From Phycisphaerales bacterium (GTDB lineage Bacteria > Planctomycetota > Phycisphaerae > Phycisphaerales > UBA1924), in contig JAHDXL010000005.1 of assembly GCA_023382935.1 (NCBI GenBank), forward strand, positions 204,649 through 268,648: DNA of 64,000 nucleotides. The letters run 5' to 3'. The notes under the pieces were generated by a model. It saw only the letters and a program-made list of their open reading frames with translations. It was not told the origin of the DNA and did no database searches. The translations under genes were made by a program, and so were the position numbers. Each line of letters begins with the position of its first letter. The stretch's first letter is position 1. This document shows positions 42,256-54,189 of the stretch, piece after piece.

Positions 42256-43704
42256 ATGGCTAGTGCCTCCTGGATGCTGCGTGGTGGTTACTTTTTGTCG
42301 CTTGGATTGGTTGGGCTTGCTCTGACCTCGCCATCGATTGCGACGGGGCAGAGTGCCTCCGAGGTGGTCGAGTCGATTCGCCAGGCGGTGGAAGGTCGCG
42401 ACCGGAGTTTCCTGCCCCCGCCCCTCACCCAGGCGGACTTTCCCCCGCGCGACGCGAAGAAGGAAGCGCTCGGGCGTCTGCTGTTCCACGACAAGATCCT
42501 GTCGGGAAACATGAACATTTCGTGCGCGACGTGTCACCACTCGCTGACCGACACCGGCGACGGGCTGAGCCTCTCGGTCGGAGAGGGCGGAATGGGTATG
42601 GGCATAACCCGCAACACCGGCGTAGATGAGGACGCGATCGTGGAGCGTGTCCCGCGCAACGCCCCGCACCTGTTCAATCTGGGCGCCACGCAGGTCACGG
42701 TCATGTTCCACGACGGGCGAGTGCAGGTCGATCCTTCTTGGCCCAGCGGGTATTTTTCACCGGCATTTATGATGCTGCCGCTCGGTCTGGACAGCGTCTT
42801 GGCCGCCCAGGCGATGTTCCCGGTGACCAGCGCGGTTGAAATGGCTGGAGGGCAGGGAGAGAACCCGGTGGCCGACGCGGCTTTGTTCGGCAACCTGCCG
42901 CTGGTCTGGCATCTGCTGGCGCAGCGTGTGCGCGGCATCCCGGAATACGCCGATCTATTCATCGAGGCGTTCGATGACGTTGACTCGGCGTCGGACATCA
43001 CGATGGTGCACATCGCCAATGCGATCGCGGCCTGGGAGGACGGCGTGTTCCGGGCCATCGATACTCCCTTTGACCGCTACCTCCGCGGCGATCACTCGGC
43101 CATGAGCCAAAGCGCTATCCGCGGCATGAACATCTTCTACAACGTGGCCCATTGCGATGATTGCCATTCCGGCTCGCTGCTCACCGACCAGCAGTTCCAT
43201 GCCATTGGCATGCCCCAGATCGGGCCCGGCAAGCATCACAATCTTCCGGGGTTCATTGATGGTCGCGATGACATCGGGCGTGAGGGCATCACCGGCGACG
43301 AGAACGACCGGCTCAAGTTCCGCACGCCCGGGCTGCGGAATGTCGCCCTGACCGGGCCTTGGGGACACGATGGCGCGTACAACACGCTTGAGGCCGTGGT
43401 GCGGCACCATCTCGACACTGACCTGGCGTTGCAGAACTACGACGTGACACAGGTGGCACTGCCATCGCGCCCGGATCTGGACGCGATCGACTTCATCGTG
43501 CACAATGACCCCGTGCGCCGACAGATGATCGCCCAGGCCAGCGAGTTGCGTTCGCAGCCAGGCGCGCTCCTGCGCCCGCGTCTGAGCGAGCGGCAGTTTG
43601 CCGACCTGATGGACTTCCTCCACGCGCTGACCGATCCACACTCGCTGGATCTTCGCCACACGATTCCGATGAGTGTTCCCAGCGGGCTGCCGGTCTTTGA
43701 TTGA
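42256..43704 (+). CDS. Dihaem cytochrome-c peroxidase/MauG-family protein
   Basis: A 482-residue exported protein with a signal peptide ending SPSIATG (about residue 31). Two haem-c sites are present: CATCH in NISCATCHHSLTDTGDG and CDDCH in VAHCDDCHSGSL. Family segments RNAPHLFNLG, FHDGRV and RTPGLRNVALTGPWGHDGAY match bacterial cytochrome-c peroxidases. It would reduce peroxide in the periplasm, or carry out a MauG-type oxidation; sequence alone does not decide. Between the haem sites there is a Gly/Met-rich loop (GEGGMGMGITRNTG). GAGGAG precedes the ATG at 42256. It stands alone, with its own possible promoter. Confidence 0.9.
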   Translation: MASASWMLRGGYFLSLGLVGLALTSPSIATGQSASEVVESIRQAVEGRDRSFLPPPLTQADFPPRDAKKEALGRLLFHDKILSGNMNISCATCHHSLTDTGDGLSLSVGEGGMGMGITRNTGVDEDAIVERVPRNAPHLFNLGATQVTVMFHDGRVQVDPSWPSGYFSPAFMMLPLGLDSVLAAQAMFPVTSAVEMAGGQGENPVADAALFGNLPLVWHLLAQRVRGIPEYADLFIEAFDDVDSASDITMVHIANAIAAWEDGVFRAIDTPFDRYLRGDHSAMSQSAIRGMNIFYNVAHCDDCHSGSLLTDQQFHAIGMPQIGPGKHHNLPGFIDGRDDIGREGITGDENDRLKFRTPGLRNVALTGPWGHDGAYNTLEAVVRHHLDTDLALQNYDVTQVALPSRPDLDAIDFIVHNDPVRRQMIAQASELRSQPGALLRPRLSERQFADLMDFLHALTDPHSLDLRHTIPMSVPSGLPVFD

Positions 43705-43726: not shown

Positions 43727-44500
43727 TCAGGATCGTGGGGCCGGGTCAGCCAGGAAGATGCGCGTGACGTAGCGCATGCAGACATTTCCTTGGGCGTCGG
43801 CGTGGTGCGCATGCAGTGTGGTCAGTTCGCCGATCAGCGTCGTCAGCCGCGGTCCTGCGGTTGGGCAGTACGACGCGCTGCGCGCACGCCCGATCAGCCC
43901 CTCCAGCGATACGTGCTGCTGGTGCGGCACGCGATGCTCCCGCACGTTGATGAACAAGGCCGACTCCTCAAACCCGCGTCCCTCGTCCATGCGCGATTCA
44001 GCGGGGTGATTGTCTGAAGCCTTGCGAATGGCCGCGCTGTAGCCGGCCGTCAGCGGGTCGTCCGCGTCGCGCGTGTTCCACAGAATGGCCAGGCGTCCGA
44101 GTCCGCGCAGAATCCGGTAAAACTCGCGCAGCGCCGCTTCGGGCTCGAACCAGTGAAACGCCTGCGCACAGGTGACCAGATCGACAGAGGAATCTCTGAG
44201 CCCCGTGGCTTCCGCCCTGCCCACCTGCGGCAAAATGCGATCATGCGGCGGACAGGCCGAGAGCATGTCCTCGTTTGGCTCCACTGCCACCACGAGCGAA
44301 CCGCGCTGTGCCAGTTGACGGGCGAAGATGCCCGTTCCCGCGCCCACGTCAGCAACCGTCAGCATGCCGGGGTATCCCATGCCTTCGAGCACGAGGTCGA
44401 TGCCGGCCTTCGGATAGTCGGGTCGAAAGCGAACGTAGTCGTCCACGACGCCGGAGAACCGTCGCGTGGGGTTCATCTGGTGCAAGGGCTCACCGCTCAT
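43727..44500 (-). CDS. Class I SAM-dependent methyltransferase
   Basis: A 257-residue Methyltransf_11-type protein. Motif I is VADVGAGTGIFARQLAQRG at about 49-67, motif II acidic residue VAVEPN, and the post-motif region VDLVTCAQAFHWFEPEAAL with the HWF segment typical of small-molecule methyltransferases near UbiE and Tam. The substrate is unknown. Its ATG lies inside the 3' end of the vWA-protein gene, an 11-base overlap, so it is translated from the same message as the two membrane proteins upstream. Whether it modifies them is open. Confidence 0.88.
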   Translation of the reverse strand: MSGEPLHQMNPTRRFSGVVDDYVRFRPDYPKAGIDLVLEGMGYPGMLTVADVGAGTGIFARQLAQRGSLVVAVEPNEDMLSACPPHDRILPQVGRAEATGLRDSSVDLVTCAQAFHWFEPEAALREFYRILRGLGRLAILWNTRDADDPLTAGYSAAIRKASDNHPAESRMDEGRGFEESALFINVREHRVPHQQHVSLEGLIGRARSASYCPTAGPRLTTLIGELTTLHAHHADAQGNVCMRYVTRIFLADPAPRS

Positions 44501-47500
44501 CGGTCTGCTCCGAAATGCGTTGCTGAGCGCGCCGCTTGGCGGCCAGCAGGCGGGAATCGTCCGAGCCCGGCTGGCTCGCTGCGCCGGATGGAGCCGAACC
44601 GGACTCGGGCTGACGGCGCAGCGCCCGCCTGCCCGCCTCGTAGGCCTCGCGCCGGCGCTGGCGTGCTTCTTCGGCCAGGCGATTGGCGTCGGCCTGACCC
44701 AGTGCTGCCGGTGTTCCGTCCGCCGGCTTGCGCGTTCGCACGCGCTCGAGCAGAGTGCCCGTGCTCGTCACTGACCGCATCTTCACTGACTCGCGAATTT
44801 CGCGCCGGAGGTCGGCTCCGAAACTGGAACTGACGAAGCGGTCCCACGCCACGCGCCGCGTTCCCACGTCCAGCAGGTACACAATGAGCGCCCACGCCAT
44901 CAGTGTCGGCCAGATGGGCGTTGATGAGCGCCATGGCTGGAGGCGATGGCGATCAAAGAGCACGCCGGCCTGTGGCTGCCCGATAGCGAGCACGCGCCCG
45001 CCGGTCAGTTCGGAGATCTGGAGCATCAAGGCGCGGTTGGGCTCGATTGTCGACAGTTCCGATCCCTGCGGCACCGTCACGCCGGTGAGCAGGGGCGCCA
45101 GCCGCGTCGCTCCCTGTCGCGGACGTGCGATGACGATGTACGCCCCGGGTTCAGCGGCGGGGACCGAGCCGGCATATCGCCCCGGACCGACCTGCTCCAG
45201 ACGCACCGGCACCGCCTGGCCGCCGGGTCGATACACCGTCACTGGCACATCCAACAGATCCACCGGATGCCCGCCCGAATCCAGCGCGTCCAGTTCCAGT
45301 GACAGCGTGCCGGCGCCGACCTCGGCGCGCAGTTCCGAACTCGACTCCCGCGGCACGCGCGTCGTGCTGCGGGCTACCCGCGTCCAGAATGTCCGATACC
45401 CAGGCCAATCGATCCATCGTGCCGCCCACTGGTGAGCGTCGGAGGTGAAGGCCACCACTTGCCCCAGGCCCACATTCCAATGGCTCAGGAGCGGATCGCC
45501 CGACGAGGCCACCATCGCATTGACCACGTTGGGTTCTTCGCGAAATCGCGACATCACCAGCCCGAGCAGCGGCGGGGCGTCTTCCATGCCGACGGCCAGC
45601 GGCGAACCTGCGTCGCTGACGCTCGGCTTGAGCAGTCCCTCGCGGATCAGCGGGCTGCGCACGACGCGCACGGCCTTGAGGAAGATCCGCGGCAGCATGC
45701 TCGGGTTGATGACGTTGTAAAACGCGCCCCCGCCCGCCAGCGCCATGCGCTCCAGCGTCTGGGTGTCTGCCGCGTCGCCGACGGCAATCGCGGTGACGCG
45801 AATGCCTCTCTGCGCCACTTCGGCGCCCAACTCCTCGAGAGTGTCCGAGTCGGTCGATCGCCCGTCCGAGAGAATGATGATTTGCCTGGTTTTCGCCTCA
45901 TGGTCGGAGAGTTGTTCGGCTGCGGCCCGCACCGCCGGGCCCAAGGTTGTCCCGCCGCCCGCGGCAATCGACCGCACCCTGGCGGCCGTGTGTTCCGGGT
46001 TAGTGTTCGGTCCCAGCGGCACAACGGTGCGATAGGAGTCGTTGAACGCGATGACGCCGATCAGATCCGTCTTGTCGAGGCTCTGGATCGCCAGCGCGGC
46101 CGCTTCATTGGCCACCTGCTGCTGCGTGCGCATCGAACCGAGCACCGATGCGCCCATTGAGCCCGAGCAGTCCAGCACGAACATCAACGCCGCTTCGGGC
46201 ACGATGACCTGGTCAGGCAGATCCAGCCGCAGTGGGAGGATTCGCTCCAGATCCGATCCATGCCATCCGCCGGCGCCGAATGAATCGGGCCCGCCGATCA
46301 TCACCAGCCCCGCCCCCAAGTCACGCACATGCGACACCAGCATGGCCTGCTGCTCGGGGCGCATCGCCTCGGCCGGCACGTTGGCCAGCATCACCAGGTC
46401 GTAGGCCTGAAGGTCGAGCATGTCCTCTGGGAACCCCTCCGTCGGCACCACTCGCACGTCGACATCGGCCTCGCGCAGCACGTTGGGAAGCGTCGCGCCC
46501 GCTCCGGTCGCCGCCCCATTCGACACGCCATCCACGAACAGCACCGAGCCGCGCCCCGGCGTGAGCGTGAAGGCGGACGCTCGGTTATTGGCCAGCGACA
46601 TGTCGCCCACGAACTGCCCGCCGCGACGGTCCGGCACGAACACCGCTTCGAATCGATGCACCCGCCCCCGTTCCAGGGGCACGTTGATGAGCGCAATGTT
46701 GCGGCCGGGTTCCAGGTCCACGATGCGTCCGAACCCCGGCTCCGGGCCGTTGATGTCCACCGGCTCGCCCTCGCGGGTCAGTTGAAGGACGCCGCGCGTG
46801 GCGCTTGTGCTCCGAAGCATCACCCGCAGAGCGACCGTCGATCCCGGCGCGGCGCGCGGCGGCGCGTCGAGCGACTCAACGATCACCTCCTCGCCCACCA
46901 TGTGATCGATCGGTACCACGTCGATGCTCAGTCCACGTCCCGAGACTGACGTTCCCGCCAATTCGGCCGCGGCCGTTGCGGCGCTGCCCGTCGTTTCGTT
47001 CCCGTCGCTAAAGAGAACAAGTCGTCCGGTTGCGTCGGGCGGGAGCAGGGCGGCCGCGTAGCGAAGCGCCGCCGCGATGTCCGTGCCTTCCACACCCGGA
47101 GATTCCAGCGAACGTTCCAGCACGTCGGCCCGCGACGGCACCGCCGCGGCGATGGCACGCCCGTCAAAGACCACCAGCCCGAGCAGGTCATCCGGCCCGC
47201 GGCCCTGCAGGCCCTGACGCAGAAACGCCCGCATCGCTCCCACCGGGTCAGGCCCGAGATCGCCGAACCGCAGCACCGACTCGGACAGGTCGATCACCGC
47301 GATAGTCGCCAGCGACTCGGTCTCACGGACACGCCGCGCTCCGGCCAGCATGCCCACGATCAGACCGATCAGCACCACGCGCGCACCCACCGCCGAGGCG
47401 CGTCGCAGCGGAATCATCGCCCGGAACCAGCGTGCGCCCACCATCGCCAGCGGCAAAGCCAGCAGCAGCAGGAAGAGCAGGGATGGATTCTCGAACGACA

Positions 47501-47507
47501 GTGACAC
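44490..47507 (-). CDS. Membrane protein with two vWA domains and a GATase1-like region
   Basis: A 1005-residue protein. It begins with the BatA-like start MSLSFENPSLLFLLLLALPL and two N-terminal membrane helices. A first vWA domain (about 66-200) has a degenerate MIDAS (Asp73-x-Ser75-x-Ser77). A GATase1-like alpha/beta region lies at about 320-425, and a second vWA domain at about 436-600 with an intact MIDAS DCSGS at 446-450. A beta-sandwich region, a single helix near 880 (PIWPTLMAWALIVYLLDVG) and a basic Ala/Arg tail follow. Such proteins are typical beside MoxR/DUF58 genes, which are absent here. GTG at 47507 is the start; function is unknown. Confidence 0.85.
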   Translation of the reverse strand: MSLSFENPSLLFLLLLALPLAMVGARWFRAMIPLRRASAVGARVVLIGLIVGMLAGARRVRETESLATIAVIDLSESVLRFGDLGPDPVGAMRAFLRQGLQGRGPDDLLGLVVFDGRAIAAAVPSRADVLERSLESPGVEGTDIAAALRYAAALLPPDATGRLVLFSDGNETTGSAATAAAELAGTSVSGRGLSIDVVPIDHMVGEEVIVESLDAPPRAAPGSTVALRVMLRSTSATRGVLQLTREGEPVDINGPEPGFGRIVDLEPGRNIALINVPLERGRVHRFEAVFVPDRRGGQFVGDMSLANNRASAFTLTPGRGSVLFVDGVSNGAATGAGATLPNVLREADVDVRVVPTEGFPEDMLDLQAYDLVMLANVPAEAMRPEQQAMLVSHVRDLGAGLVMIGGPDSFGAGGWHGSDLERILPLRLDLPDQVIVPEAALMFVLDCSGSMGASVLGSMRTQQQVANEAAALAIQSLDKTDLIGVIAFNDSYRTVVPLGPNTNPEHTAARVRSIAAGGGTTLGPAVRAAAEQLSDHEAKTRQIIILSDGRSTDSDTLEELGAEVAQRGIRVTAIAVGDAADTQTLERMALAGGGAFYNVINPSMLPRIFLKAVRVVRSPLIREGLLKPSVSDAGSPLAVGMEDAPPLLGLVMSRFREEPNVVNAMVASSGDPLLSHWNVGLGQVVAFTSDAHQWAARWIDWPGYRTFWTRVARSTTRVPRESSSELRAEVGAGTLSLELDALDSGGHPVDLLDVPVTVYRPGGQAVPVRLEQVGPGRYAGSVPAAEPGAYIVIARPRQGATRLAPLLTGVTVPQGSELSTIEPNRALMLQISELTGGRVLAIGQPQAGVLFDRHRLQPWRSSTPIWPTLMAWALIVYLLDVGTRRVAWDRFVSSSFGADLRREIRESVKMRSVTSTGTLLERVRTRKPADGTPAALGQADANRLAEEARQRRREAYEAGRRALRRQPESGSAPSGAASQPGSDDSRLLAAKRRAQQRISEQTDER

Positions 47508-47553
47508 GATGTGCTCGGTTCCCCTTCACGATCGGATCGCTACCGCTGCAAGC

Positions 47554-49893
47554 CTAGTTCCTCGACGGTGCATCCGCATCGCGACCTTCCGGCACCCGAG
47601 GCCTTTCCGCGCTTTCCTCGAACCGCCGGTAGACGTTGCGCACGTAGTTCCGCATCCGCGGCGGGATCGACTGCCCCTCAATCGCACGCTCCGCCCCGGC
47701 CGCCGCTTCGCGCACACGTTCCGCGACCTCGGCACGACTTGCTCCCGCGATGGATCGCCCGGGCACCGCGCCTGTTCCTTCGGCCGCACCGACGATGCGC
47801 GATGGCGTCTGCTCATCGGCCCCCTTCCCGCGTGCGTCAAAAAACTCGGTCTGCGGATTCCATCCGTCCGTCGGCTGCGGCTCGTCGAACAATGGCTCAC
47901 GCCCGAAGCGCCCGGCAAGCCCACGCAGACGCTCGAGGTCCTCAGGGGAAGCCTGGTTCAGCAGTTCCTGCGCAGCCTCACGCAGTTTTTCTGACCGCGC
48001 CATCTTCCGCATCGCATCGAGTTTCCGCTGGTCCATATTCTCCAACTGGTCGAGCATCTCGCCCAGGCTGCCGCCCCGGCCCGATTGCGGGTCGGCCTGG
48101 TCGTTTCCCGGCTCAGTCCCCGGCTGGGGCGACCCGGGCCCGATCGGTTGCGGTGGGTCCGACGGCGACCCCCCCGGCGCTGACTCGCCGCCCCGGCGCT
48201 GTTCCTCTCTCGGCTTTCCCTGTTCGCCCGACCCTGCCGTCGGCGGAGCCCCGGGAGTCTGCTGACCCGGTCGATCTGAGGGCGGCTGCGCCGGCTGTTG
48301 CTGCCCGCCCTGCTCGGGCTTCTGATCGGGCTGTTCGCCCTTTGCGGACCCGGCTTGTCCTCCTTCGGGTGGCGTCTGATTGCCCGGAGTCGGTTGCGCG
48401 GGCGTTTGCTGTGATGGCCTCTGCTCGCCGGGCCTTTCCTGCGGCGACCCCGGCGCCCGGCCGGGTGGCTGCTCAACCGGTTGCGACGGTCGATCGCCGC
48501 CAGTTTGCTCCCGACCTGGTTGCTCCTGCGGTGTGTCGCCAGGCTTGTCGGGTCGCTGCTCGCCCGGCTGAGCCTGCGGTTGGTCGGGCTGCAAAGACTG
48601 CGGGTCGCGCTGGATCTGTTCGGCCACGCGGTCGAGTCGATCGCTCAACGCTTCGCCCGTTGGCCGATTGCCTTCTTGCCCGCGCCTTTGCTCGCCCGTG
48701 TTTGGCGGAGTCTCGTCCGTCGGCTGCGATCCCGTTTCGTTCTGCCCCGGCTCCCCATCGGCGGGTTGTTCGGGCCGAGGCTTTGGCTCGGCCGCCTCCT
48801 GATGCCCTGGCGACTCCGGCGATGGTTCGGCCGGCGCGGGCCTGCTCGGTGTCGGCGGCTCCGTTGCGTCCGACTCTTCCGACACGTCTTCGCCGGCGTT
48901 GGGTTGTTCGGCGGCCAGTCCCCGCTGCTCGGCCCGGCGAATCTGCTCCGCCAGGGCACGCAGATCCTCCGCCAGCGCTTCACGCGACTCATCGTCCATG
49001 CGCTGCGCCGCCCGCGCCATCTCGCGCAACTGTTCGCTCGCGGCCGCAAAGTCCGAACGTCGCAGCGCCTCGGCCAGTTCCGCCACGCTCGACTCCCTGT
49101 CTGGCTCGATCTGTCGCAGTGCCCTGGTCAGGTCATCGGCCTCGCGTCGGGCTGCTTCATCCAGTGCCCGCGCCCGATCCTCCAGTGCCGCCGCCGACTG
49201 CGTTCGCGCCCGCTCGGGCGTCGATCGTCCTTCCGCCAGTTCGCGCTCGATTTCATCGAGCCTCGCCAGCGTTTCATCGTCGGCCGCTTCACCGGCGCCA
49301 CCCCCGGCGTTCAACTGTTCTGCGACCGCCTGCGCGGCCCGCACGATGGAATCTCTCGCCCGAGCGATCTCACCTTGGCTTGGCTGGCCCGCCTGTTGCA
49401 CCAGCGTCGGGATGAGCAGCATGCCCGCCACGGCCGCGGCCGACAGGACCGGCCACAGCATCCAGTCGCGCGTGAGGCGAATCGGCACAGCCTGCGCGAC
49501 GCTGACCTCGGTCGCCCGGCGCTCCGCGTCCTGCACCGCCAGTTGGCTGAATGCCGGATCCCCGGCGTACGTCGCCGATTCCAATTCGATCGCGGACGAC
49601 AGGCGATCGTCCAACCGAAGCGCCTCATCGACTTTCGCCGCCGCCGATACCAAACGTCGGGGCTTCGCCAGCGCCAGGGTCGCTCCGCCCAGCAGCCCGA
49701 CCGCGAGCAGCGATCCGACGATCCAGAAACCGGCCTGCCCGCCGACCCGGATGCTCGTCGGCACGCCGATGGCGATCGCCAGCCCCGACGCCCATGTCAA
49801 CATTCGCCCGGACTGGCGCAGCACCTCCCCCGCCCGCACGCGGCGGAGCGCGCGCCGGGCCAAGCGACGAGAGTTGTGAGCCATGCCGGCCAT
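47554..49893 (-). CDS. Pro/Gln-rich membrane protein with coiled-coil regions
   Basis: A 779-residue protein with two or three N-terminal membrane segments (about 30-80 and 145-170), a long charged helical region (about 175-335, many Arg/Glu/Ala heptads), a low-complexity part rich in Pro, Gln, Gly and Glu (about 335-620), and a helical C-terminus (LGEMLDQLENMDQRKLDAMR). The layout resembles DUF4175-type proteins, but I cannot confirm that. It is the first gene of a group with the double-vWA protein (46 bases downstream) and a methyltransferase. Starts at 49893 or 49884 are both possible. Confidence 0.75.
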   Translation of the reverse strand: MAGMAHNSRRLARRALRRVRAGEVLRQSGRMLTWASGLAIAIGVPTSIRVGGQAGFWIVGSLLAVGLLGGATLALAKPRRLVSAAAKVDEALRLDDRLSSAIELESATYAGDPAFSQLAVQDAERRATEVSVAQAVPIRLTRDWMLWPVLSAAAVAGMLLIPTLVQQAGQPSQGEIARARDSIVRAAQAVAEQLNAGGGAGEAADDETLARLDEIERELAEGRSTPERARTQSAAALEDRARALDEAARREADDLTRALRQIEPDRESSVAELAEALRRSDFAAASEQLREMARAAQRMDDESREALAEDLRALAEQIRRAEQRGLAAEQPNAGEDVSEESDATEPPTPSRPAPAEPSPESPGHQEAAEPKPRPEQPADGEPGQNETGSQPTDETPPNTGEQRRGQEGNRPTGEALSDRLDRVAEQIQRDPQSLQPDQPQAQPGEQRPDKPGDTPQEQPGREQTGGDRPSQPVEQPPGRAPGSPQERPGEQRPSQQTPAQPTPGNQTPPEGGQAGSAKGEQPDQKPEQGGQQQPAQPPSDRPGQQTPGAPPTAGSGEQGKPREEQRRGGESAPGGSPSDPPQPIGPGSPQPGTEPGNDQADPQSGRGGSLGEMLDQLENMDQRKLDAMRKMARSEKLREAAQELLNQASPEDLERLRGLAGRFGREPLFDEPQPTDGWNPQTEFFDARGKGADEQTPSRIVGAAEGTGAVPGRSIAGASRAEVAERVREAAAGAERAIEGQSIPPRMRNYVRNVYRRFEESAERPRVPEGRDADAPSRN

Positions 49894-49950: not shown

Positions 49951-50991
49951 ATGGAAACGCATGCAACGCTGGCGCAACTTCTCGCCGGGGAACCCCTCTC
50001 GGCCCCCCAGGCCGAGGTGCTCTTTGAGAGCCTCCTCACCGGTGGGCTGGATGACGCCCAGATCGGGGCCTTGCTGGCGTTGATCCAAGCCCGTGGGCCT
50101 GTTCCCGACGAACTCGTCGGCGCCGCAACCGCGATGCGCCGGCACGTCACGCGCGTGCCCATCGAACCGAACGATGGCCAGGTGCTCATTGACACCTGTG
50201 GTACCGGCGGCGCCCCCAAAGTGTTCAATGTTTCGACCGTCGCCGCGATCGTGGCCGCCGCGGCCGCCGGAGCGCCTGAACAGCCCGGCATCTTGGTCGC
50301 CAAGCATGGCAACCGCAGCCGCTCGGGTCGCGGCTCGGCCGAGGTGCTGGAACGTCTGGGCGTCAATGTGCACGCATCGCCCGAGGTTCAGGCCGAGTGC
50401 CTGCGCCGCGCGGGCGTGTGCTTCTGTTTTGCCATCCATCATCATCCTGCCATGCGCTATGCCGCCGGGCCTCGCAAGTCGCTGGGCTTTCGCACCATTT
50501 TCAACCTGCTCGGCCCGCTGACCAATCCGGCGGGCGCTCGGCGTCAACTCATTGGCGTCTACGATCTGACTCTGGTCGAGGTGATGGCGCGTGCGCTCGC
50601 GGCCCTGGGGGCCGAGCGTGCCATCGTGGCGCACGGCATGGACGGGCTCGATGAACTGACCACCTGCGCCGAGTCTGTGCTCGTGCATGTGGTGGACGGC
50701 TCGCTCCAGCGCGAGCACGTTCGCCCACCCGACCTGGGAATCGCACCGGCGACCCACGGGCAACTTGCGGTGCAATCGCTGGACGAGGCCGCGGACGTCG
50801 CGAAGGCCGTCCTCGATGGGGAGTCCGGGCCTCACCGCGACATCACGCTGCTCAACGTTGCGGCCGCGTTGCTTGTCGCCGGAACGGTTTCCAGGCTCGG
50901 CGATGGCATTGAAAAAGCCCGGCTGGGAATCGACTCCGGCCGGGCCCGGCGTGTGCTTGAACACCTGCGGGAAGTTTCACATCTCAGTTGA
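49951..50991 (+). CDS. trpD: Anthranilate phosphoribosyltransferase
   Basis: A 346-residue enzyme of tryptophan synthesis that joins anthranilate with phosphoribosyl pyrophosphate. The glycine-rich PRPP loop is DTCGTGGAPKVFNVST; KHGNRSRSGRGSAEVLERLG and the anthranilate-contact region AIHHHPAMRYAAGPRKSLGF are present. The usual loop reads S-x-S-G-S-A; here the Arg in RSGRGSA replaces Ser or Lys. ATG at 49951 gives the normal N-terminus; the frame stays open far upstream only because it is antisense to the Pro/Gln-rich gene. No other trp gene is adjacent. Its 3' end overlaps the convergent kinase gene by eight bases. Confidence 0.94.
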   Translation: METHATLAQLLAGEPLSAPQAEVLFESLLTGGLDDAQIGALLALIQARGPVPDELVGAATAMRRHVTRVPIEPNDGQVLIDTCGTGGAPKVFNVSTVAAIVAAAAAGAPEQPGILVAKHGNRSRSGRGSAEVLERLGVNVHASPEVQAECLRRAGVCFCFAIHHHPAMRYAAGPRKSLGFRTIFNLLGPLTNPAGARRQLIGVYDLTLVEVMARALAALGAERAIVAHGMDGLDELTTCAESVLVHVVDGSLQREHVRPPDLGIAPATHGQLAVQSLDEAADVAKAVLDGESGPHRDITLLNVAAALLVAGTVSRLGDGIEKARLGIDSGRARRVLEHLREVSHLS

Positions 50992-53395
50992 CCGGCGCTG
51001 TCGCCCGCACCAGGGCGTCGCCGATGATCGAGCCGACTTCACTGCTCGCGCTGCCGCTAAACACGGAGCCTTGCGCGAAAACCGTGTATTGTACGCCTTC
51101 AAGCGGCTTGACTGTCGGCGTGACCCACAGCACCGCGTCAACCTCTTCGTGTGCCTTCAGCCAGGTGAGCACCGTTGTGTGGACGTCGGCCGCCTCGATG
51201 GGCCGCTGCCCTCGCGCCGCCTCCAACTCGGCGACCAACTCGATTTGGGAGTCGGCATCATCCGTCTCTCCAAGGAACAACGCCGCGTCGCCCAGGGTGT
51301 GTCCGCCTGCGTCGATCAGTCCGCCGAGCAGGCAGCGCAGACCATCGGCTACCTTTGCGTCGATCGGGGGCGTCAGGTCGGACACCACCAGCACGGAACG
51401 GTTCGAGAGCGCCTTGAAGTCGACGCCCGGGAGCCTGAACTCCTCGGGGCCCGCAGGCGCGGTCGGAATCGACGGAAGAGGCGGAGTCGCGCCGTTCGGC
51501 CAAGACTCCATGCTGCCATGCGGAGAGGTCACCATCATGCGCGGTTCGGCGCGCAAAGATGCAAACATCACCGCGGCTGCTCCCAGTGCCGCAAAGACCA
51601 GCAGCCCGACCATCGCTCCGGCCACCGTACCCCCGTTGATCGCCACCGGGTCACGCCGTCCGCGCATCGAGCGATGCAGACTGGATACACGCTGTTGCGC
51701 CGCACGACGCTTGGCTGCCGCACGCCCGCGCGCCGAGCGCAACTGCTCGGCCGCCGGCGCCCGCGCCCCAGACGGAACCAGGTTGGCCGCGTGCTTGGCC
51801 GCTCGCGCGCTGTTGTTCTTGGCCACCGCTACGCCGGCGAACAAGCCGGGGCCTGCCAGGCCTGCCAACGAAAACTCCCTGCCCGACGGGCGCCGCAGAT
51901 CGTGCTCGCCTTCCACCTGGTATTGCCCTGACCACCAGCCCGTGACCTTCAACTTCGGGCGACCGGCCAGACGCTTGGGAACCGGTCGCTCGCTGCCCGC
52001 CGCGGGAGTCTGCGGCAGTGGAGGAGGCGTCGGGGAGCCCGCATGCGCCCACCCTACCACCTGTGGCTCGGCAGAGCGCTCGCCTTCAAATGCTCTGCCG
52101 TGCTGCGCCACGCTGGGCAGATCGACCGGGCGCACTTCGAACAACTTCGGCGCACCGAGCACCGCTTCGAGGTCGGCCAGCATCTCCGCGGCCGTTGCGT
52201 AGCGCTTGTCATAGTCCGTCATCGCACGGCGCACGATCCACCGCACCGCCTCAGGGCACCGACTGGTGATCTGGCTCAGCCCGCCGTGCGCAGGGAACGA
52301 GTTTTCAATGACTGAGAACAGCACCGCGCCGGCCGCGTAGATGTCAAACTTCGTCCCGTCGATCTGATGTACCTTCACGCCGCGCAGCGCCTGCCGCACC
52401 AGTTCCGGATCGCGGAAGTACTCGGTCCCGTGCGTGGTCAGCGTCATCGCGCTGCGCAGCGGTGTCACCAGCCCGAAATCGACCAGGTGCGCCCGCTTGC
52501 CATCGACGATGATGTTGTCCGGCTTGACGTCCTTGTGCCACAGCCCGCCGCGGTGATACGTGTCGAGCGCTCGCAACAAGTCGGCCATGTAGCCCAAAGC
52601 CGTTCGCAGATGGGTGTCGTTCAGGCCGTGCCCACCGGAGAGGCCGTGCATCCGCGTCGTGAGCGTCGAGAGCGACTCGCCCGGCACATAGCGCATCACG
52701 TAGAAGAAGCGGTCCTCTGCCAGTTCGTGTTCGAGCACCAGGCCCAGTCTCTTGGCCGCATCCAGGGCGCGGCTCTCACGCACGATCTGCGGCAGACTCG
52801 AACCATCGGTCAGGCTGAAACTCTTGATGACCACCTGGTCAACCTCTTGCAGCCCCTGGCGCACGAAGGCCGCCCGCTTGAGTTCGTCCGGCTCGGCGAT
52901 GTACAAACGACCGCCGGAGCCTCCGCCCGGCAGGCTCCCGACGATTGTGTACCCGTTGAACATGCCCACGCGCCGCTTGCTCGGCCTGTCGGGCCCGGGG
53001 GCTTCGGCGATAACCTGCGGGAGTCGGTGCTCCAGCCCCTCCGTGACGCCCGACAATCCGATTAGCCGGAACGGATGCCCGATCAGCACGCGATACACGC
53101 AGGTCGATGCGGTCTTGACTTCGTTCTTCACCGCCCGCCCGTAGTGGGCCGCCGCCGACCATCGCCCGATCACCACGCTCCCGAGTACCAGCGGAGCCAG
53201 CACGACCATGAGCACCAGGGCGCCCACGAACCGGAACGTGTCGGAGAACATGCCGACAATGAACCGGGCCACATGGGAGATCAGGAACCCGATGACCTTG
53301 AACAGGCGCACCAGCACGATCGCCCCGAACACAGCAAGCAGCACCGCCGCGACGATTCCAAAAATGACGGCCAGAAATGTCGGTCCGATCGTCAT
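50984..53395 (-). CDS. Membrane-bound Ser/Thr protein kinase with N-terminal membrane segments
   Basis: An 803-residue protein. Two or three membrane helices lie at residues 5-77, a Hanks-type kinase domain at about 149-412, a long linker, another helix at about 588-613 and a C-terminal alpha/beta domain. Kinase residues visible are the glycine loop GSLPGGGSGGRLY, Lys191 (VVIKSF), catalytic HKD at 287-289 (WHKDVKPDNIIVD) and DFG at 306-308. HKD instead of HRD makes it a non-RD kinase. The substrate loop reads THGTEYFRDPEL, with DPE for APE. The order, with helices before the kinase, differs from the PknB plan. It follows the sigma-factor gene by 29 bases. Confidence 0.88.
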   Translation of the reverse strand: MTIGPTFLAVIFGIVAAVLLAVFGAIVLVRLFKVIGFLISHVARFIVGMFSDTFRFVGALVLMVVLAPLVLGSVVIGRWSAAAHYGRAVKNEVKTASTCVYRVLIGHPFRLIGLSGVTEGLEHRLPQVIAEAPGPDRPSKRRVGMFNGYTIVGSLPGGGSGGRLYIAEPDELKRAAFVRQGLQEVDQVVIKSFSLTDGSSLPQIVRESRALDAAKRLGLVLEHELAEDRFFYVMRYVPGESLSTLTTRMHGLSGGHGLNDTHLRTALGYMADLLRALDTYHRGGLWHKDVKPDNIIVDGKRAHLVDFGLVTPLRSAMTLTTHGTEYFRDPELVRQALRGVKVHQIDGTKFDIYAAGAVLFSVIENSFPAHGGLSQITSRCPEAVRWIVRRAMTDYDKRYATAAEMLADLEAVLGAPKLFEVRPVDLPSVAQHGRAFEGERSAEPQVVGWAHAGSPTPPPLPQTPAAGSERPVPKRLAGRPKLKVTGWWSGQYQVEGEHDLRRPSGREFSLAGLAGPGLFAGVAVAKNNSARAAKHAANLVPSGARAPAAEQLRSARGRAAAKRRAAQQRVSSLHRSMRGRRDPVAINGGTVAGAMVGLLVFAALGAAAVMFASLRAEPRMMVTSPHGSMESWPNGATPPLPSIPTAPAGPEEFRLPGVDFKALSNRSVLVVSDLTPPIDAKVADGLRCLLGGLIDAGGHTLGDAALFLGETDDADSQIELVAELEAARGQRPIEAADVHTTVLTWLKAHEEVDAVLWVTPTVKPLEGVQYTVFAQGSVFSGSASSEVGSIIGDALVRATAPVN

Positions 53396-53424
53396 GGTCG
53401 TGCTCCGTCACTCGGCTGTCGGGT

Positions 53425-54189
53425 TCATTCCCTCATCGCCTGCTCGTCCCGACGCCTCAACTCGAGCTGGCGGTGGTAGATCTCGGCGACGGCCTCATCA
53501 AACGGGCTCTCGTCGGCCTTCTCCGGTGATGCGTTCGGATTCAGGTACAGTCCATTTCGCACCGCCTCGGCCCGCTCCTCGTCCGTGAACGAGTACACCG
53601 TCATCACCTCCACCAGTTTGCTCCGCAGCAACTCGCGCACCCGCCCCAGCCGGCGGCTGACCGTTGGCTCGCTCACGCCCATAGCCGCGGCCACGTCTTT
53701 GCCGCTCTTCCCGTCCAGCACCCTCATGCGGTAGATGGAGAAATCGGTAAAGTCAGCCTCTCGCTCGCACAGGCGAATGGCCGCCTCGACCTTTGACCGG
53801 AACACGCCCTCCTCGAACGAGCGATCCACCGATCGCCCATCACAGGCGGCCATCCAGGTTTCGTCCAGTTCGGTCGCCGCGCGTCCGCCTCCCCTCTTCA
53901 AAGCCGTGCGCCGGTCGATTTCGTCTCCCAGCACATGCTTGGCGATGGCGAGAAGCCAGGTGGAAAACCGCGCCCCACGCGCAGGGTCGTACCGGTCAAT
54001 CGACGTGCTCAGGGCCGCAAGCGTCTCCTGCGACAGGTCGCGCACGGTTTCCACGCCGATGCGTCCTCGGCCCCACTTGGTGAGTTGAGCGCGGATGACT
54101 GGGCCGAAAATCTCCCAGAGTTCAAACCACGCGGCCTCGTCGTTGGCGCGCAGGCGCGTGATGAACCCCGTCGTGACTTGCATGAGCAT
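53425..54189 (-). CDS. ECF-like RNA polymerase sigma factor
   Basis: A 254-residue protein with a sigma region 2 (AAWFELWEIFGPVIRAQLTK, VRDLSQETLAAL, then FSTWLLAIAKHVLGDEIDRR) and a region 4 helix-turn-helix (LDGKSGKDVAAAMGVSEPTV, SRRLGRVRELLRSKL). Region 3 is missing, as in ECF factors, but the spacer between regions 2 and 4 and a C-terminal extension of about 55 residues are longer than usual. ATG at 54189 is chosen because GAAGGGTGGAT lies upstream; the frame extends to 54492 without a better site. It lies just upstream of a Ser/Thr kinase gene, which may control it by phosphorylation. Confidence 0.85.
   Translation of the reverse strand: MLMQVTTGFITRLRANDEAAWFELWEIFGPVIRAQLTKWGRGRIGVETVRDLSQETLAALSTSIDRYDPARGARFSTWLLAIAKHVLGDEIDRRTALKRGGGRAATELDETWMAACDGRSVDRSFEEGVFRSKVEAAIRLCEREADFTDFSIYRMRVLDGKSGKDVAAAMGVSEPTVSRRLGRVRELLRSKLVEVMTVYSFTDEERAEAVRNGLYLNPNASPEKADESPFDEAVAEIYHRQLELRRRDEQAMRE

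Follow-up and report, generated by a model that had tools for sequence, protein, structure and literature searches.

In this study, we showed that two adjacent minus-strand genes of a Phycisphaerales bacterium, P1 and P2, form a membrane-protein gene pair that recurs across related Phycisphaerae and is not a freak of one genome, and that the pair stands apart from the MoxR ATPase and DUF58 genes found beside its relatives. The genes lie in a window of 64,000 nucleotides (GenBank assembly GCA_023382935.1, contig JAHDXL010000005.1, positions 204,649 to 268,648 of the forward strand), which is the whole stretch of DNA analysed. P2 encodes a protein with two von Willebrand factor A (vWA) domains, and P3, the next gene downstream, encodes a methyltransferase. 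With a probability of about 0.5, we read P1-P2 (locus A) as a MoxR-free paralogue of the pair found in a MoxR-DUF58 operon, which would give a shared motor, encoded elsewhere, a second receptor with clients of its own. The parts are known and the arrangement is new. Less expected than the recurring pair was a match between the motif of the second vWA domain (vWA2) and the presence of an NHL beta-propeller gene in a related clade.

Results

A first-pass annotation had described P1, P2 and P3 as packed minus-strand genes, and this layout was confirmed, with a gap of 46 bases between P1 and P2 and an overlap of 11 bases between P2 and P3. Matches to P2 were found in 60 of 61 related genomes (E ≤ 0.001). 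P2 loci were gathered from genome searches, region fetches and a related-locus search (best 80 of 457 confirmed stretches), and a tree of 112 rows was built from which L001-L033 (short flanks), locus C, identical P2s and frames shorter than 780 residues were left out. The P2s fell into clade A (59 rows, including that of the window; support 100), clade A' (15 rows; 91) and clade B (32 rows; 99), each of which remained one clade when 53 rows were added. Neighbours were counted at loci with enough flank, the loci having been chosen by P2. P1 adjoined P2 in 40 of 53 clade-A loci, while MoxR (0/51), DUF58 (0/48) and NHL (0/51) genes were never found beside it. The first-pass annotation had also noted that MoxR and DUF58 were missing here, and protein searches agreed, giving no match to either within the window. 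The clade-A locus L085 (on the contig of L057) had a MoxR-DUF58 pair about 8.6 kb off, beyond miaB, in a bat-like cluster.

Clade A' showed the order P1-P2-MoxR-DUF58-BatA-like, with P1 adjacent in 11/12 loci, MoxR in 9/10, DUF58 in 8/10, the BatA-like gene in 8/9 and NHL in 0/12; the Pfam labels of this clade (AAA_3, DUF58, BatA) were confirmed in one locus, L065. Clade B had MoxR in 25/29 loci, DUF58 in 22/26, NHL in 17/29 and an adjacent P1 in 4/29. When the vWA2 columns were removed, A and A' were sisters (SH-aLRT 98), and A' plus B as one clade was disfavoured (p-AU 0.036), the groups having been named after the trees were seen. From this sisterhood and the clade-A' gene order, the P1-P2 pair of the window is kin to the P1-P2-MoxR-DUF58-BatA-like operon, and would have arisen either because neighbouring genes were lost or because the pair was duplicated. 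The P1 tree was weak at its root and does not settle the clade relations. P2s lacking a downstream MoxR were also seen outside clade A, at L043, L142, L146 and L148 in clade B and L068 in clade A', so P2 may have become detached from MoxR on more than one occasion. Another P2, sharing 85% identity with that of the window, at L074 (RHKP01000003.1, titled Cyanobacteria bacterium CYA N2_1), was placed among Phycisphaerae kin, and its label looks wrong.

The likely partner genes MoxR and DUF58, absent from locus A, were located behind P1-P2 in the sister lineages and behind a paralogue of P2 in the same genome. This full-length paralogue (P2b, 35% identity; G000:C2:8808-11783) belongs to locus B, where the order is a 465-residue membrane protein, an NHL-repeat protein, P2b, a MoxR ATPase, a DUF58 protein and a BatA-N/vWA protein. 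The locus-B MoxR matched PF07726 (AAA_3) with 214.9 bits and the bpMoxR profile with 45.3 bits (cut-off 27), and its P-loop reads GVPGLGKT; the DUF58 protein scored 95.6 bits, and the BatA-like neighbour matched PF07584 with 49.7 bits. A separate bat cluster of MoxR, DUF58, two vWA proteins, a TPR protein and BatD was found at C5:185.6-194.1 kb (L168:893-9395), and a further DUF58-BatA cluster on C3. The bat cluster ends 10.5 kb before the start of the window.

The features of the three genes are listed in Table 1. The P2 model runs from two N-terminal helices through vWA1, beta-strand parts, the GATase1-like (class I glutamine amidotransferase-like) domain and a second beta part to the C-terminal and tail helices. 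Hydropathy gave transmembrane (TM) candidates at residues 3-21 and 39-57. Pfam matches were PF13519 (98.7 bits) and PF07090 (45.6 bits, cut-off 27), while a Foldseek search with the whole model was dominated by single vWA domains. Residues 320-717 aligned with 3soz, 2gk3 and 3rht over 205-207 residues, with a root-mean-square deviation of about 2 and 24-25% identity. Two vWA domains and a GATase1-like match had been proposed before and are present; the vWA pair was said to lie around the GATase1-like region, whereas vWA2 is inserted inside it. The sole cysteine of P2 is residue 447, within the vWA2 metal-ion-dependent adhesion site (MIDAS). Since neither half of the GATase1-like domain has a cysteine, this domain does not qualify as an active amidotransferase of the usual kind.

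Table 1. Coordinates of P1, P2, P3 and their parts in the window.
Feature	Position	Strand	Basis
P1, helical membrane-anchored protein, 779 residues	47554..49893	-	Family in 57/61 genomes; model helices; TM candidates
P1 residues 331-615, Pro/Gln/Gly/Glu-rich linker	48049..48903	-	Composition; mostly pLDDT<50
P2, double-vWA membrane protein, 1005 residues, GTG start	44490..47507	-	Pfam; model mean pLDDT 86.4; TM candidates
P2 vWA1, residues 66-199, intact MIDAS DLSES/T/D	46911..47312	-	BatB 3ibs, 4jdu match profile positions 61-202
P2 GATase1-like domain, first half, about residues 320-431	46215..46550	-	3soz/2gk3/3rht Z 27-29 over model 320-717
P2 vWA2, residues 437-619, inside the GATase1-like domain, intact MIDAS DCSGS/T/D	45651..46199	-	Pfam, fold, alignment
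P2 GATase1-like domain, second half, residues 620-717, no Cys	45357..45650	-	PF07090 155-241 at residues 627-711
P2 C-terminal helix, residues 866-885, taken as TM	44853..44912	-	Model helix; below hydropathy cut-off; positive stretch after
P2 conserved C-terminal tail helix, residues 985-1004, S.LLxAKRRA	44496..44555	-	L987 invariant in 51 rows
P3, soluble class I S-adenosylmethionine methyltransferase, 257 residues, variable neighbour	43727..44500	-	Methyltransf_11 69.2 bits (cut-off 21.2)

One MIDAS of P2 had been called broken, which was not borne out, both motifs being intact; the altered motif belongs to the paralogue on the other contig. Throughout clade A, vWA2 kept DxSxS, T and D in 59/59 rows. 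In vWA1, DxSxS was present in 56/59 rows, two of the other three lacking these columns and one being partly gapped there, and the T site was T in 52 rows and S in 6. The ratio of nonsynonymous to synonymous substitution rates (dN/dS) of P2 against the sister genome was 0.116, showing P2 to be under purifying selection. In the tail helix, A990, K991, R993 and A994 were nearly invariant in 51 rows, and among P2 rows of at least 960 residues the pattern L..A[KR].R was found in 48/55 of clade A, 12/14 of A' and 24/31 of B, several of the misses being close variants of the pattern or prematurely ending frames. The stretch between the first two TM segments has a net charge of +4 and the one after the third TM segment +3, so by the positive-inside rule the large domains would lie outside the membrane and the tail inside.

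P1 had been described as having a long low-complexity part, and residues 331-615 are indeed 60% Pro/Gln/Gly/Glu, with the remainder helical in the model. The model is all-helical outside the mostly disordered linker (H6-50, H52-76, H142-168 and others; mean pLDDT 69.5), with hydropathy TM candidates at 50-68 and 147-165. No Pfam family was matched above its cut-off, and matches of the P1 profile to PDB sequences were taken as low-complexity or coiled-coil chance. A simple gene caller favoured an open reading frame on the opposite strand in this region. P1 is taken as a real gene, since its family was found in 57/61 related genomes (E ≤ 0.001, a few weak) and its dN/dS against the sister genome was 0.248. 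Against C1198, a long helical protein encoded at locus C, P1 gave an hhalign probability of 66 over 105 columns, and it showed no similarity to C222. C1198, a putative DUF4175-like protein, had no Pfam match at E ≤ 0.01.

The own genome also holds a second P1, standing alone at C4:418384-420147. P1 was also counted without choosing by P2; where a gene was split, its further fragments were merged or dropped, as were P2 matches to just a single domain. Among the matches listed there were 102 P1 places, with P2 at most 700 bases downstream in 14, at 0.7-12 kb in 31 and nowhere nearby in 57. Some of these 57 were a second, solitary P1 type; others were clade-A-type P1s away from P2, or lay on short contigs. 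With so many P1 places lacking a nearby P2, the P1 family as a whole is not bound to P2.

In clade B, vWA2 carried DxSxS in 11/32 rows and H[SA]xE in the remaining ones. Sorted by neighbour, 19 rows had HxxE with an upstream NHL gene nearby, 11 were intact without NHL, and 2 had HxxE without NHL. On a tree built without vWA2 the motif changed at least 8 times. Among 7 independent pairs, NHL went in the same direction in 6.8 on average and never in the opposite one (p from the sign test 0.016 in the median, with a range of 0.016-0.031). When vWA2 was treed by itself (44 rows), the 21 HxxE domains all fell on the same side (100/99); given this grouping, the vWA2 domain itself seems to have been exchanged as a module.

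At the level of genomes, an NHL profile search of the 61 genomes replaced a single-sequence search in 35 chosen genomes (25 matched). It gave 38 matches at E ≤ 6.2e-86, the next being 2.3e-42, and the line for presence was set at this gap after the gap was seen. P2b was readable in 37 of the 38 NHL-positive genomes, always with H[SA]xE, while no P2b was found in G027. These include family f4, in which the NHL gene lies on another stretch than P2b. Seven NHL-free genomes had a clade-B P2, of which six were intact (G003, G018, G019, G024, G025, G054) and one read HSCEM (G042). The expected place of the NHL gene in this genome falls at contig ends, one contig stopping 171 bases beyond P1 and another starting 19 bases ahead of P2b. 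The match was tested again on 22 new genomes, among the matches listed from 244 searched in the phylum; one (G290) turned out to be clade A. In the 21 new clade-B genomes, H[SAT]xE was found in 15/15 with NHL (E ≤ 2.3e-71), and 4 of the 6 without it were intact. The other two, which belong to one family (L234 and L235, from G096 and G143), had a third vWA2 form, DAVEF. Combined, vWA2 was HxxE in 52/52 genomes with an NHL gene vs 1/13 without, counts that include 14 genomes among the first 32 rows, which had suggested the rule, and in which related genomes are not independent. Because the rule came from overlapping rows and the genomes are related, the pair test is the fairer measure.

A solute-binding protein gene lay between P1 and the NHL gene in the five relatives tested (including L195:6936-10626, L045:4656-8267 and L135:6002-8632). 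A permease domain was matched in one of three long NHL proteins tested (L135) and not in those of L195 and L045. In the literature we found nothing joining MoxR, NHL and von Willebrand, nor NHL, vWA domain, lipoprotein and MIDAS.

P3 had been called a methyltransferase, as the profile match confirmed, and hydropathy gave no TM candidate in it. Its dN/dS against the sister genome was 0.138. It lay downstream of P2 in 12/52 clade-A loci, 0/10 of A' and 0/30 of B, one of the twelve (L076) being counted via a frame extending well back across P2.

The start of P1 is 57 bases from the presumed ATG of the divergent trpD. Across the opposite-strand trpD, upstream of P1, a Ser/Thr kinase gene and a sigma-70-type gene were found at 50984-54189; in clade-A loci the kinase was kept in 19/39 and trpD in 18/39. 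On the other side, at 42274-43704, lies a gene for a MauG-like di-haem protein (TIGR03981 241.8 bits, below the cut-off of 340).

Discussion

The reading that we prefer, in which locus A serves a motor encoded in trans, rests on the paralogue standing directly before MoxR-DUF58, the clade-A' operon, the sisterhood of A and A', the low dN/dS of P2 and the conservation of its MIDAS and tail. Three helices, two N-terminal and one C-terminal, would anchor P2 in the inner membrane. The vWA1 domain of P2, the beta-sandwich parts and the GATase1-like domain with the inserted vWA2 would be periplasmic, and its tail cytosolic. By analogy with NorQD (PMC9976466), both MIDAS metal sites would hold client proteins, binding acidic side chains of theirs. 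The companion of P2 would be P1, which has two or three TM helices joined to a long flexible linker, and the P2 tail helix would be the docking site for a MoxR/DUF58 motor whose genes lie elsewhere. Locus A would then be a second, client-specific receptor for the shared motor, and P3 would not be needed.

Several observations weigh against this. P1 was not adjacent to P2 in 13/53 clade-A loci. MoxR-family genes were several in each of the 61/61 genomes, with 7 matches in the own genome, so their co-occurrence is uninformative and no partner of locus A is singled out. The stretch before the third TM segment of P2 is also positive (+2), which weakens the topology argument. The tail pattern was present in 3/4 outgroup P2s too, and may serve something else.

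The strongest competitor, which we consider rather unlikely, is that locus A is independent of MoxR, P2 being simply a periplasmic adhesin or receptor that works through its MIDAS, with P1 as its membrane scaffold. The missing MoxR (0/51) and DUF58 (0/48) genes next to clade-A P2 and the vWA2 MIDAS kept in 59/59 rows fit such a role; on the other side, clade A conserves the tail helix just as the MoxR-linked clades do, and the nearest kin are still in a MoxR operon. Far less probable is that P1, P2 and P3 act together and the methyltransferase modifies P1, P2 or a ligand of theirs. The 11-base overlap and the 12 clade-A loci with P3 speak for it, but P3 is soluble, of a generic family, and not beside P2 in 40/52 loci of A, 10/10 of A' and 30/30 of B. 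As it adjoins P2 in just 12/52 clade-A loci, P3 is a loose neighbour of P1-P2 and was rejected as a complex member. Of the envelope complex suggested by the first-pass annotation, the membrane-protein pair fits the conserved P1-P2 linkage, while P3 falls outside the conserved group with hardly any linkage of its own. That locus A is a decaying duplicate, as the separation of P1-P2 from the other operon genes might hint, was rejected as highly improbable on dN/dS (0.116 for P2, 0.248 for P1) and the vWA2 MIDAS letters retained in every clade-A row.

Among known systems, the Bat operon is similar in its membrane-anchored vWA proteins and in the MoxR and DUF58 of the P2-related operons, and vWA1 of P2 matches BatB structures (3ibs, 4jdu) in both profile and fold. 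It differs in that P2 has a vWA domain inserted in a GATase1-like domain, that searches of locus A gave no MoxR, DUF58 or BatD gene, and that the own genome has a separate bat cluster. The BatA N-terminal domain PF07584 had no match in P2 at E ≤ 1. Full deletion of bat in Leptospira reportedly did not alter the tolerance to oxidative stress (PMC3557215), and we therefore assign no aerotolerance role to P1-P2.

The MoxR-vWA-beta-propeller ternary systems (PMC7159879) resemble the paralogous locus B, which joins the same three parts. In those systems the vWA protein carries the propeller as a C-terminal fusion, and GXXXTAKS is often, not always, the P-loop of MoxR. The NHL propeller of locus B is instead a separate protein or the end of a long protein, and its MoxR has GVPGLGKT and scores far higher with AAA_3 (214.9 bits) than with bpMoxR (45.3). 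No beta-propeller was matched by Pfam in P2 (E ≤ 1) or its paralogue (E ≤ 0.01). For NorQ/NorD, the NorD MIDAS is reported to be needed for active cNOR and not for binding the MoxR-type NorQ (PMC9976466); the analogy that we propose is a vWA MIDAS that holds the client while a MoxR ATPase drives remodelling. P2 differs in being a membrane protein of several domains at a locus that lacks MoxR. The GATase1-like proteins 3rht, 2gk3 and 3soz share the fold of P2 320-717, but in P2 it is interrupted by vWA2 and lacks cysteine.

The results of clade B suggest a tentative extension, which we hold a little less firmly than the shared-motor reading. The vWA2 domain may be an exchangeable client-recognition cassette, of which the MIDAS form would bind via metal and the HxxE form would be dedicated to NHL, the two having been swapped repeatedly as the NHL partner came or went. 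The window would then represent a third form, free of NHL, detached from MoxR and with both MIDAS intact, using the shared motor in trans.

To our knowledge, it is an open question for Bat-type systems by what means a MoxR ATPase in the cytosol works on a vWA protein with domains across the membrane. The conserved tail helix of P2, together with a paralogue detached from the operon, would be a natural separation of receptor from motor, and the match between the vWA2 motif and NHL points to specific residues and a specific partner.

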